Source of the DNA: Archangium sp.
GTDB lineage: Bacteria > Myxococcota > Myxococcia > Myxococcales > Myxococcaceae
Direction: 5' to 3'
Assembly (NCBI GenBank): GCA_030695565.1
Contig: JAUYRZ010000007.1
Coordinates: forward strand, 35,091-99,090
DNA length: 64,000 nucleotides
The first letter of the stretch is position 1. Every line of letters begins with the position of its first letter. Below, in pieces: positions 56,272-63,531 of this stretch. The position numbers and the translations under genes are program-made. Below the pieces are notes generated by a model. It made no database searches, was not told the origin of the DNA, and saw only the letters and a program-made list of their open reading frames with translations.

Positions 56272-57351
56272 TCAGCGACAGTCGCCTGTGGTCCTGTTGC
56301 AGGTCTTTCCTTGAGGGCAGGTCCGGCCCCAGGTGCATGAGGACGCGCACCAATTGCCTGCAGCTCCCGCCTCGCAGACGTACTCCGTGCGGCACTCAGC
56401 TTGACGACCCGGAACGGAACACGGCGCCCTGCAGAGGCTCACACCGCCCTCCGTCACGCAGACATCGGAGCCGTTCCCACAGGGCGCACCGGGCGTGCAG
56501 CTCGAGGTGCAGTAGCCGCCGTAGTACCCGGTGTGAGCCCCGTCGTAGGGGCGCTGACACACGCGGCCTGGACCGCAGTCGGAGGCGTCAAGGCAGGGCG
56601 AGCCGATAGCGGCCGTGAGGGAGGTCGCCGGGGGCGGGTCGATCCAACACAAGCTCGCGCCGTTCCAGGAGAGCCCGTCGTAGCAGCTGTACCCTGCGCG
56701 GCAGCCGCGTGGGTGGCAGGTCGGCGCGCAGAGGCGCACGCTCTCACCGAAGCGGGTGGGAAACGAGACGCAGTCGCTGATTCCCGTACACGAGGCGGAG
56801 GTGCCCTCGCACGGCAGCGTACAGAAGCCACCGGGATAGGCGACGCCGCCCGTCGTGTGCAGGCGGCAATAGGCACCTCGTCCCAGCCCCGCGCAGCTCG
56901 AGTCAGAGGTGCACGGATCGCCGACGAGCACGGCTGCAGGAGCGCACTGTTGTTTGACGCACGCTGATTCACACAGCGTGCAGGCGCTCCCCACCGGGCC
57001 GCAGCGCGAGCTGAGCTTGCCGGTGTGACAGATATCGGTGTTGTGGCAGCCGGTCGTGCAGGTGTCGGGGCCGCGGCACGACCCGCGCTCGCACCGGTTG
57101 TTGCTCGTGCACGCCTGGCAGGCTTCCGCGTAGACGCCGCACTGCGACGAAGTCTGCGAGTCCGTTCGGATGCAGGTCGCTCCGTCGCAGCACCCATCGG
57201 AGCAGTTCGCGGGACTGCAGGCCCCTGCGCCGGCCTCAGGTGCTGCAGCTTTAGTGTCACCGCACGTGGCGCCTTCGCACACGGTGACGAGACAGCCGGA
57301 GGACAACACCGACACCAGGATGACTAATCGCGAGCAGCTCCCGCCGAGCAT
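56272..57351 (-). CDS. Secreted Cys-rich lipoprotein
   Basis: LVILVSVLSSGCLVTVCEGATCG; CSDGCCDGATCIR; repeated Cys spacing resembling the protein at 6800-7501. Confidence 0.8.
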   Translation of the reverse strand: MLGGSCSRLVILVSVLSSGCLVTVCEGATCGDTKAAAPEAGAGACSPANCSDGCCDGATCIRTDSQTSSQCGVYAEACQACTSNNRCERGSCRGPDTCTTGCHNTDICHTGKLSSRCGPVGSACTLCESACVKQQCAPAAVLVGDPCTSDSSCAGLGRGAYCRLHTTGGVAYPGGFCTLPCEGTSASCTGISDCVSFPTRFGESVRLCAPTCHPRGCRAGYSCYDGLSWNGASLCWIDPPPATSLTAAIGSPCLDASDCGPGRVCQRPYDGAHTGYYGGYCTSSCTPGAPCGNGSDVCVTEGGVSLCRAPCSVPGRQAECRTEYVCEAGAAGNWCASSCTWGRTCPQGKTCNRTTGDCR

Positions 57352-57437: not shown

Positions 57438-57866
57438 TCAGAGCGCGCCGAGGTCTATGGACGTGGTGACGCTCCCCGCACCGACGCCTCCGTCAGTGAG
57501 GCGTGGGACTGAGACGGAGAGGACGTACGTATCGTCCATGCCGAGGTGCGAACACGTTCGTGTCGGGCCCTCGGAGTACCTGAGCTCGAACGCCAGCGTG
57601 CCCGTGCTCGATGAGGTGCTGATCAGCTGCGCGCCGGTGACCCCCGCGTCGAGGAGTCGCACGTTCCCGGTCGCGCTCGGTGAGGCGTAGAACGCCGCCG
57701 GCGCCGAGGTGGGCTGCCACGTGACGTCGATGACCACGCCCGCATCGGTGGTCGTGCCGCTCGCGGCGGGCGATGGAAAGAGCACTGCGGCAGACGAGCA
57801 GGGTCCCCCGGACATGGGACAACCGGCGGTGAGGAGGAGGGTGAGAGCCAGGAGGGTCGTGCGCAT
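57438..57866 (-). CDS. Hypothetical lipoprotein
   Basis: MRTTLLALTLLLTAGCPMSGGPC lipobox. Confidence 0.65.
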   Translation of the reverse strand: MRTTLLALTLLLTAGCPMSGGPCSSAAVLFPSPAASGTTTDAGVVIDVTWQPTSAPAAFYASPSATGNVRLLDAGVTGAQLISTSSSTGTLAFELRYSEGPTRTCSHLGMDDTYVLSVSVPRLTDGGVGAGSVTTSIDLGAL

Positions 57867-59777: not shown

Positions 59778-60341
59778 GTGAGTACCCGAGTGCGTCTGGT
59801 GGTGCTGGTGCTGGGCCTGGGGCTCCTCATCGGGCTCGCCAGCCTGACGGGCGTGCGTGAGTGGATGACGGAGGAGCGCCTGCGCGCCGCCGTGACGGCC
59901 GCCGGCTGGTGGGGCCTCGCGCTCTTCTTCGCCATCTTCACCGTGGGGCAGTTGCTCCAGGTGCCGGGCGTGGTGTTCATCTTCGCCGCCCGCGCGGCGT
60001 GGGGACCGATGCTGGGTTTTGCGGGCGCGTATGCGGGCGCGGTCATCTCGGCCACGCTCGTGTTTCTGCTGGTGCGCTCGGTGGGCGGCAAGGCGCTGGC
60101 CGAGATCACCTGGCCCCCTGCCCGGCGGATCCTCGCGGGCCTCGAGCAGCGCCCGGTGCTCACCATCGCGGCGTTGCGGGCGGTGATGATGCTCAGGCCC
60201 CCGCTCAACTACGCGCTCGCCCTCTCTCCAGTGAAGCAGAGCCACCACTTCATCGGGAGCGTGCTGGGGTTGATCGTACCGGTCGCGGTGGTGGTGTTTC
60301 TCTCCGAAGGCGCGCTCGCGCTGGTGAGGTCGTTGAGCTGA
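59778..60341 (+). CDS. TVP38/TMEM64 family membrane protein
   Basis: GTG start; GLALFFAIFTVGQLLQVPGVVFIFAARAAWGPMLGFAGAYAGAVISATLVFLLVRSVGG. Confidence 0.8.
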   Translation: MSTRVRLVVLVLGLGLLIGLASLTGVREWMTEERLRAAVTAAGWWGLALFFAIFTVGQLLQVPGVVFIFAARAAWGPMLGFAGAYAGAVISATLVFLLVRSVGGKALAEITWPPARRILAGLEQRPVLTIAALRAVMMLRPPLNYALALSPVKQSHHFIGSVLGLIVPVAVVVFLSEGALALVRSLS

Positions 60342-60907
60342 TGCGCGCGATCCGGATGAAGTCGTACGGTGGCCCCGAGGTGCTCTGCCTCGAGCAGATC
60401 GCAGCTCCCGTGCCCGGGCCTGATGACGTGCGGGTGGCCGTGCACGCGGCCTCGGTCAACCCGGTCGACTTCAAGATTCGTTCGGGCGGTCAACGCGCGG
60501 TGGTGTGGCTCGACCTGCCGTGGACCCTGGGCATGGACGTGTCGGGTGAAGTGCTGGAGGTCGGTGCCAAGGTGAAGGGCTTGAGGGTGGGAGACCAGGT
60601 GGTGTCGTCTCCCAGCCACCGGCGCATGGGCTGCTACGCCGATGAGGTGATCATTCGCGCCGACGAGGTCGCGCTCAAGCCGAAGTCGTTGAGTCATGTG
60701 GAGGCTGCGTCGTTGCCGCTGGTCGCGCTCACCGCGTGGGATGCGCTGGTGAGCGCGCTGCAGGTCGAGCGCGGCCAGCGGGTGTTGATTCAGGCCGGAG
60801 CGCCGCTCATCGACCGCGTGTACCCGCTGGAAGAAGCGGCCGAGGCCCACCGGTATCTCGAGACCGGCCGTGCGAAGGGCAAGGTCGTGTTGTCTGTGCG
60901 CGCCTGA
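60341..60907 (+). pseudogene. Zinc-type/quinone oxidoreductase (MDR family) with the Rossmann NAD(P)-binding domain deleted in frame
   Basis: MRAIRMKSYGGPEVLCLEQIAAPVPGPDDVRVAVHAASVNPVDFKIRSG...GQRVLIQAGA joined directly to PLIDRVYPLEEAAEAHRYLETGRAKGKVVLSVRA. Confidence 0.75.
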
Positions 60908-61021: not shown

Positions 61022-61423
61022 ATGCACTCGCCCTTCAGCGTCTTCGTGGTTTCCGCCGGCTTCTCGCTCGTCGCGTTCGGCTGTCTTCCCGTCCCGTGCG
61101 ACCCCATCTCGCCCGCGCCTCAAGCCCTCTGCCACCGCGCTGATGCGGGGGCGATCGCGCCTGACGCCTCCTTCGTGCTGGAGGGCGAGGCCTTCGCGGA
61201 GGACGCCCAGTGTCAGGTGGCCGTCGACGGTGGACAGATCGACCTGATCGTGACCGAAGGCTCCTGTGGCACCGTTCCGGCGAACGGAGTGCGAGCGGCC
61301 ACCTTTCCCGTGCGCTGCACCATCCCTCCGCTGCCTGCGGGCTCGTACGTCGTGAACTCGCTGCCTCCGACGCAGTTCGACGTTCCACTGGCCGCTGATG
61401 CCGGCGTGCGGGGTTGCCGGTGA
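61022..61423 (+). CDS. Small Cys-containing lipoprotein, tandem paralog 1
   Basis: LVAFGCLPVPCDPISPAPQALCHRADAGAIAPDASFVLEGEAF...CQVAVDGGQIDL...CTIPPLPAGSYVV. Confidence 0.75.
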   Translation: MHSPFSVFVVSAGFSLVAFGCLPVPCDPISPAPQALCHRADAGAIAPDASFVLEGEAFAEDAQCQVAVDGGQIDLIVTEGSCGTVPANGVRAATFPVRCTIPPLPAGSYVVNSLPPTQFDVPLAADAGVRGCR

Positions 61424-61812
61424 ACACGCTGTTCAAGTCAGTCGTTGGTCTGGGCCTCTTCGTGCTCGCCTGGAGCTGCACCCTTCCGTGTGAGAGCGCT
61501 GCTTCCGCACCTCGCGACGTGTGCCGCCGGGCCGACGCAGGAGCGCTGACAGCTGACGTGCCTTTCGTCGTGGTCGGCCAGACCTTCTTGCGCGAAGGCG
61601 CTTGCTCGGTCGGCGTCGATGGTGGGCGGATCGAGCTGCGCATCGACGGCAACACGTGCACGGGCAACTCAGGCGAAGGCCTCGCGGCGCCTCCTTTGCC
61701 CAACAGCGTCGACTGCGCGGTACCGGCGTTGCCGGCCGGCACGTACACGGTCACCGGGCGCACCTTCACGCTCCCCGAAGGCGCTGACGGTGGTCTGCCC
61801 AGCTGCCCATGA
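61420..61812 (+). CDS. Small Cys-containing lipoprotein, tandem paralog 2
   Basis: GTG start in GTGA overlap; VLAWSCTLPCESAASAPRDVCRRADAGALTADVPFVVVGQTF...CSVGVDGGRIELRIDGNTC...CAVPALPAGTYTV. Confidence 0.75.
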   Translation: MNTLFKSVVGLGLFVLAWSCTLPCESAASAPRDVCRRADAGALTADVPFVVVGQTFLREGACSVGVDGGRIELRIDGNTCTGNSGEGLAAPPLPNSVDCAVPALPAGTYTVTGRTFTLPEGADGGLPSCP

Positions 61813-61837
61813 GTCAGTGTGCGAGAGTCGAGCGCTC

Positions 61838-62233
61838 ATGAACGCCACCCCCCGACTCCTCTGCGGCCTGTGTCTTTCCGTCATTGCCTGGAGCTGCACG
61901 CCCCCGTGCGAGAGCATCTCCTCGAATCCGCAGACCGTCTGTCATCGTGCTGATGCAGGGACGATCGCCGCTGATGCGCCGTTCGTCATCGAGGGCGAGA
62001 CCTATGCGAGCGGCACGTGTTCCGTCACCGTGGAGGGCGGGCAGATCAACCTCGCGGTCGATGGCATGTCGTGCTCGCGCAGTGACTCGGAACGCGCTGC
62101 TCCGGCGGCGCCCCGCTTCGTGAAGTGCAACGTGCCCGCGCTGCCCGCGGGGACGTACACGATCAAGAGGGGTACGCCGGTCACGTTCACCATCCCCGAG
62201 TCGGCCGACGCAGGGGTTCCGAGGTGTCCGTGA
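61838..62233 (+). CDS. Small Cys-containing lipoprotein, tandem paralog 3
   Basis: VIAWSCTPPCESISSNPQTVCHRADAGTIAADAPFVIEGETY...CSVTVEGGQINLAVDGMSC...CNVPALPAGTYTI. Confidence 0.75.
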   Translation: MNATPRLLCGLCLSVIAWSCTPPCESISSNPQTVCHRADAGTIAADAPFVIEGETYASGTCSVTVEGGQINLAVDGMSCSRSDSERAAPAAPRFVKCNVPALPAGTYTIKRGTPVTFTIPESADAGVPRCP

Positions 62234-62613
62234 GAGTCGCGGCTTTCGGTTTGTTCTTCGCCAGCCTGGGGTGCTCCCCGGAGTGCGAGCCGCTGCCCCC
62301 CGTGCCGCAGCAGATCTGCCTCAGCGCGGTGAGCGCAGCGATCGTCCCTGACGCGTCCTTCGTGCTCGAGGCGACGGGCGCGGTGTACGGCGGCACCTGC
62401 CAGGTGCGCGTCGATGGCGAGCGGATCGAGCTGACCATCGCGGGCCAGACCTGCAGCCGCACCAGCGGAGGCAGCGCCAAGCCCGTGCCGCCGAAACCCA
62501 CGTCGTGCACGATTCCCCCGTTGGCCGCGGGCGCGTACACGGTGAACACGCCCGGCACGACGCCGCTTCAGGTGGCGACTTCGGGTGACTCGGGCGTGCC
62601 GGCCTGTCCGTGA
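62230..62613 (+). CDS. Small Cys-containing lipoprotein, tandem paralog 4
   Basis: GTG start in GTGA overlap; FASLGCSPECEPLPPVPQQICLSAVSAAIVPDASFVLEATG...CQVRVDGERIELTIAGQTC...CTIPPLAAGAYTV. Confidence 0.7.
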   Translation: MRVAAFGLFFASLGCSPECEPLPPVPQQICLSAVSAAIVPDASFVLEATGAVYGGTCQVRVDGERIELTIAGQTCSRTSGGSAKPVPPKPTSCTIPPLAAGAYTVNTPGTTPLQVATSGDSGVPACP

Positions 62614-62623
62614 TTTTGCGGGC

Positions 62624-62665
62624 GAGGCCCTCACCCCGACCCTTTCCCGAAGGGAGAGGGAGCCA
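62624..62665. repeat. Dispersed intergenic palindromic repeat between convergent genes, likely bidirectional terminator
   Basis: gaggccctcaccccgaccctttcccgaagggagagggagccac. Confidence 0.7.
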
Positions 62666-62667
62666 CT

Positions 62668-63531
62668 TCAGGCCGCTTTCGCGACCGTGACCGACGCGTT
62701 GTTCTCCATGAACGCCGCGGGGTCTTCCACCATCTTCTTGAGCAGCTCGAGCGACGAGGCGCAGTACAGCCCGTCTTCGATGCGCTCGTCGAAGGTGTAC
62801 TTCATCGAGCACATCTTCTTCACGGTGACCGCGCCGGTCTCGTCTGCCACCGGCACCAGCTTGGTGCGGCCCAGCGCGGCGAAGAGCGGAATGTTGCCGT
62901 ACTCGTAGAGGTGGTGGAACGCCGACTCGAGCCGCACGCTGCCCAGGTTCGCGATGAACATGCTCGCGTACATGGGGTCTGGGTGAATGAAGCTGCCCGG
63001 CAACAGGTTGACCGAGTCGAGCCAGCGCACCACGCCCACGCCGAAGCGCAGCAACATCGCGGGCAGCTTGAGGAAGAGGTTGAGCTCCTTGTCCATGTGG
63101 CTCTTCTTGTCGCTGCGGCCTTCCTTCACGTCGCCGTGGATGAAGGCGACCGTCTGCTCGAAGGTCATGGTGGGGTCGAACTTGCGCTTGAGCACCACGA
63201 TGGGAGCGCCGTCTTCCATCGACTTCTTCGCAGAGTAGGAGATCCACACGCCGTCGCGCTGGTACACCCGGCTGCCCACCACGAAGCGGTTCATGCGCGG
63301 GCGAACGTGGAGCACGTGCGCGATCGCCCAGGTGAAGAGGTGGAAGACCGTGATGCGCTTCTCGTGCGTCGCGTTGTACGCGTCGATGAACTGCTGGGTC
63401 TTGGTGAGATCCAGGTCCTGCTCGAAGTACACGGCCGACTCGGTCCGTGTGCGCATGAGGAACGGCATCATCTGGCGGAAGGGGGCGACGTCGGTGGCGA
63501 GGAATCCGTCGGGGCGCTTGAAGAGGGGCAT
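62668..63531 (-). CDS. Stand-alone 2-oxoacid dehydrogenase E2/CAT-like acyltransferase domain protein
   Basis: YFEQDLDLTKTQQFIDAYNATHEKRITVFHLFTWAIAHVL; PMYASMFIANLGSVRLESAFHHLYEYGNIPLFAALGRTKLVPV; MKYTFDERIEDGLY. Confidence 0.75.
   Translation of the reverse strand: MPLFKRPDGFLATDVAPFRQMMPFLMRTRTESAVYFEQDLDLTKTQQFIDAYNATHEKRITVFHLFTWAIAHVLHVRPRMNRFVVGSRVYQRDGVWISYSAKKSMEDGAPIVVLKRKFDPTMTFEQTVAFIHGDVKEGRSDKKSHMDKELNLFLKLPAMLLRFGVGVVRWLDSVNLLPGSFIHPDPMYASMFIANLGSVRLESAFHHLYEYGNIPLFAALGRTKLVPVADETGAVTVKKMCSMKYTFDERIEDGLYCASSLELLKKMVEDPAAFMENNASVTVAKAA

Follow-up and report, generated by a model that had tools for sequence, protein, structure and literature searches.

What are the four small, cysteine-patterned genes that lie in a row close to the end of a myxobacterial contig, and what might their products do in the cell? 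The genes fall within a window of 64,000 nucleotides, the whole stretch of DNA analyzed here, which makes up the final 64 kb of a 99-kb contig in the 8.5-Mb genome of a myxobacterium, Archangium sp. (G000). A sequence-only reading had taken positions 61022-62613 for four tandem paralogous small lipoprotein genes, products of an old amplification that had since diversified in function, perhaps toward surface display or kin-recognition-like variation. Our analysis supports a real but modest finding: the family is new, although small lipoproteins confined to one lineage are a common type, and it has expanded in tandem within a single genus. The four copies, designated c1 to c4, and the two genes that flank them are as follows.

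60341..60907, + strand: upstream neighbor, PIG3-type NAD(P)H quinone oxidoreductase, 188 aa (the orthologue in the same-genus genome G003 has 333 aa)
61022..61423, + strand: c1, 133-aa small putative lipoprotein paralogue; ATG start; predicted signal peptide to residue 20, putative lipid Cys21, six more Cys
61420..61812, + strand: c2, paralogue of 130 aa; its GTG start overlaps the stop codon of c1 (GTGA); noncanonical AWSC lipobox
61838..62233, + strand: c3, 131-aa paralogue; ATG start; the copy closest to the syntenic G004 copy
62230..62613, + strand: c4, paralogue of 127 aa; its GTG start overlaps the stop codon of c3 (GTGA); the most diverged copy
62668..63531, - strand: downstream convergent neighbor, PF00198 2-oxoacid dehydrogenase acyltransferase-like protein; landmark of the syntenic locus in both G003 and G004

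When the c3 protein was used as a query against its own 8.5-Mb genome, it matched c2 (E = 7e-39), c1 (E = 1e-27), and c4 (E = 6e-20), with no further copies found, and a profile built from the four copies added a single match at chance level (E = 0.15). As c3 finds the other three at such values and nothing else in the genome, the array is real and the paralogy of its members, which are 127 to 133 aa long, is secure. Pairwise protein identity among c1 to c4 is 35 to 54%, so the copies are indeed strongly diverged, and c4 shares 36 to 45% with the other copies of the locus. The GTGA overlaps read earlier are present at the c1/c2 and c3/c4 junctions, while c2 and c3 are separated by 25 bp, an arrangement which suggests that the four genes are cotranscribed and translationally coupled. 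A promoter and terminator scan gave no sigma-70-like promoter, and the three terminator-like sites are not clearly above the 1.3 expected in shuffled sequence (standard deviation, 1.2). Neither Rfam families nor tRNAs are found within the 64-kb window.

In all four proteins, a signal-like N terminus leads to a Cys where cleavage would be expected, and six more Cys follow at positions common to c1 to c4. The seven cysteines of the earlier reading are thus present in every copy; the lipobox that it also named is weak. The PROSITE-type lipobox pattern is met by c1 (AFGC) and c4 (SLGC) but not by c2 and c3 (A-W-S-C), in which the Trp at position -2 is outside the usual pattern and counts against a lipoprotein assignment, and none of the four copies in the window matches the strict form [LVI][ASTVI][GAS]C. 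Most relatives have clearer lipoboxes (FAAC, FVAC, LTAC, LIAC, VAGC, and LAAC), and for this reason c1 to c4 are probably lipidated and lipid anchored as well. The sequence motifs quoted with the earlier reading fared similarly, holding strictly in some copies, with several broken in c2 and c4 and with VEGG and NVP in c3. Across 22 full-length members, which are related sequences rather than independent cases, the Cys other than the lipid Cys number exactly 6 or 10 in all but one (L046). An even count is the pattern expected of an oxidized, exported, disulfide-bonded domain, and Cys parity suggests that three disulfides hold each domain of the array.

The mature part of each protein is predicted to fold as one small all-beta domain. 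AlphaFold models were generated for mature c3 and for the G004 copy (63% identical), using alignments of 18 and 24 rows, and returned pLDDT values of 80 and 81, respectively, with pTM values of 0.68 to 0.69. Both models have eight strands in the same order and are all beta, and a Foldseek search of the PDB with either gave no match better than E = 1. The suggestion that the copies might prove unrelated on structural alignment is countered in part by their clear sequence homology and by this common strand order, which concerns the two members modeled. We also considered bacterial Ig-like and similar beta-sandwich domains, to which the array proteins are likened by the all-beta prediction and by weak profile matches of single members (Big_3_5, E = 0.019; PGS Ig-like, E = 0.03) that are below curated cutoffs. 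Whole proteins score 14.7 bits against a cutoff of 35.5, and 13.9 against 45. Membership in the Ig-like, TIG, or Big beta-sandwich groups is not supported, as no Pfam or NCBIfam score is above cutoff and neither model has a significant fold match in the PDB. In addition, the array proteins would be stabilized by conserved Cys, which are as a rule absent from bacterial Ig-like and similar domains. The domain is probably a small, sandwich-like, all-beta domain of an unnamed fold. Conservation across all members, or almost all, is confined to Cys, Gly, Leu, and Tyr positions, with no invariant His, Ser, Glu, Asp, or Lys that could serve in catalysis, and an enzymatic role is unlikely given this set of residues.

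To place the array in a wider context, profile searches were run first from the window copies and then from their relatives. Family members, most of which come from metagenome assemblies, were found in 9 of the 40 relatives searched, in 11 of 96 genomes of the host family, in 18 of 145 genomes of the order, and in 21 of 195 genomes in the phylum search. Away from this locus they are scattered lone genes, and no neighbor genes common to the lone members were found within the host family. Two of the five other genomes of the same genus have no member, nor were any found in two large, well-sampled genera of the host family (g34 and g38). No relatives were found on viral contigs, and searches against PHROGs and PADLOC gave matches at chance level only. 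Immunoglobulin light chains surfaced as candidate relatives, with weak profile matches (E = 0.017 and worse) that were taken as chance. Sequence searches of Pfam, NCBIfam, and PDB yielded no significant match. The sequence-only reading had assigned the proteins no known function, and likewise no Pfam or NCBIfam model names them, so that the reading withstands its own first check, the search for a well-characterized domain. This is a previously undescribed Myxococcota family, patchy among myxobacteria, disulfide rich and fast evolving, which the libraries searched here do not name; it defines a small exported family with a sharp Cys signature, the lipid Cys plus 6 or 10.

The members with 10 Cys besides the lipid Cys belong to f7, a different family within the order (L032 and L111 to L116), in which each genome has one orthologue in conserved gene order. 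The link to the array is distant, consisting of one match in the first search (E = 5.6e-4) together with the common Cys and LPAL-x2-G-x-Y pattern. The f7 relatives share with the array the lipid Cys, the six core Cys, and a C-x-LPAL-x2-G-x-Y motif, whereas they differ in being single copy and in carrying two extra Cys pairs, by which the count stays even. The neighbors differ as well, being a radical SAM/SPASM gene and small membrane proteins in f7 and a quinone oxidoreductase and an acyltransferase at the array. At L114 (6381-10237), and also at L032, L111, L113, and L116, the lone member sits between two small genes and the radical SAM/SPASM gene, in an order kept across genera. The best NCBIfam matches of this last gene are to the mycofactocin, GeoRSP, and NirJ maturases, all below cutoff.

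Syntenic contigs were found in the same genus by means of the neighboring acyltransferase, in metagenome-assembled genomes labeled Archangium sp. and Myxococcales bacterium. In G004 (VFKJ01000454.1), at least two tandem copies adjoin the orthologous acyltransferase, the second being cut by the contig end. In G003 (JAUXRX010000056.1) there is one remnant, which starts near protein residue 53 and has no N-terminal half. Over the shared stretch, the first G004 copy (G004a) is 61% identical to c3, 58% to c2, 57% to c1, and 45% to c4, so that the best match across species is only slightly above the best match within the array (54%, in a range of 36 to 54% over that stretch). The acyltransferase is 84 to 85% identical between the same species, which indicates that the lipoproteins, at up to 61%, change much faster than their neighbor. 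With cross-species identity about equal to that within the array, and the acyltransferase at 84 to 85%, the duplications probably predate the split of the sampled species of the genus, and the old amplification proposed earlier is upheld by at least two syntenic tandem copies in a sister species. The order of the duplications is beyond the protein tree, in which 1 of 15 inner branches is well supported. The array would be the product of local tandem duplication with turnover by birth and death; it resembles the gene expansions commonly seen in single lineages and offers a compact example of how lipoprotein genes turn over in this way at one syntenic locus.

Selection was assessed by the method of Nei and Gojobori. 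Between copies, dN ranges from 0.37 to 0.69 and dS from 0.68 to 1.51, and dN is below dS for all pairs, with dS close enough to saturation that dN/dS is a rough guide. Taken over stretches of 20 codons, pN/pS lies between 0.37 and 0.96, and the peak near 0.96 falls in the variable, Gly/Ala/Pro-rich loop that joins strands 5 and 6. No 20-codon stretch has dN above dS, in a comparison whose power is limited by near-saturated dS. The copies are under loose purifying selection, and the functional diversification read into their divergence is not borne out, as dN exceeds dS in no stretch.

By exclusion, the proteins would be nonenzymatic envelope modules with a structural or binding role. The reading that we favor, with somewhat better than even confidence, is that of a new Myxococcota family of small disulfide-stabilized beta-domain lipoproteins, locally expanded through old birth and death, that serves as a structural or binding component of the envelope; each protein would be made with a signal peptide, lipidated on its first mature Cys, and anchored there. 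It is distinctly unlikely, in our view, that the tandem copies of the new beta-domain each took a different envelope binding partner, contact or prey factors among them. If the proteins were surface-exposed contact or prey-binding factors, the array would matter more. There is a low but appreciable chance that the genes are a graveyard of duplicates, decaying and near dispensable, with little current function. The remnant in G003, which has lost its first half, would fit such decay, as would the two of five same-genus genomes with no member, the low identity, and a neighboring quinone oxidoreductase that lacks its core in this genome. However, all four window copies are open, retain all seven Cys and the signal peptide, and have dN below dS. 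Small secreted disulfide-rich inhibitors or ligand binders, for example protease inhibitors guarding a predator from its own or its prey's enzymes and amplified for dose or target range, would account for the small size, the even Cys number, the relaxed selection, and the variable loop between strands 5 and 6 with its pN/pS near 0.96. Yet no inhibitor family or structure was matched in the profile and PDB searches, no conserved reactive-site-like motif is present, and the neighbors give no hint, making this explanation unlikely.

Under kin recognition, or self/nonself surface variation, the tandem copies would be kept as diversified recognition or toxin modules that cells display or exchange, as with SitA or TraA in Myxococcus. 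Myxobacteria are known to have lipoprotein toxins and polymorphic receptors (PMC5562445, PMC6372800), and the array consists of tandem, strongly diverged lipoprotein copies in a myxobacterial host. Nevertheless, no immunity-type gene is adjacent, as a quinone oxidoreductase precedes the array and a convergent acyltransferase follows it; every copy aligns over its full length as a single domain that retains the C-terminal Cys, with no variable C-terminal toxin domain; and no stretch has dN above dS. Moreover, the host family's best-sampled genera have no member, and no link to an outer-membrane-exchange locus was seen. The SitA lipoprotein toxins of Myxococcus xanthus are likewise myxobacterial lipoproteins with several diverged versions per genome, but they are toxins whose C-terminal domain varies and which are paired with a cognate sitI immunity gene, in many cases on Mx-alpha prophage-like units (PMC5562445), whereas the array proteins are single domains of about 110 aa with no partner gene. 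A SitA toxin/immunity cassette was rejected, there being neither an adjacent cognate immunity gene nor a layout of conserved N terminus and variable C terminus. The kin-recognition-like variation proposed earlier thus finds no immunity-type partner, no polymorphic C-terminal domain, and no excess of dN, and we consider it very improbable.

Several further features of the surrounding sequence were observed. Upstream, on the - strand, lie genes for a 359-aa Cys-rich protein (56272-57351) and a short signal-peptide protein (57438-57863; MRTTLLALTLLLTAGCPMSGG); no Pfam family scores above cutoff for either, and neither looks related to the array. Compared with its 333-aa G003 orthologue, the quinone oxidoreductase gene (60341-60907) is missing about 435 bp in frame, so that the protein lacks its central part, from after the GroES-like N-terminal portion to before the C-terminal end; this represents either a real deletion or an assembly collapse. 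At the contig end (63668-64000), a short gene begins whose product resembles a Flp-type pilin in its N-terminal part (GMTEYIIIVALIAIAAIGVITLFGDNIKALFG); no comparable frame turned up in a quick pattern search of the sequence around the syntenic locus in G003 or G004. Between c4 and the acyltransferase gene, at 62630-62661, there is a palindromic CCCTTTCCCGAAGGGAGAGGG-type element that looks like a dispersed REP-like repeat, and, from a reading of translations, a like sequence seems to be present in the G003 intergenic region.
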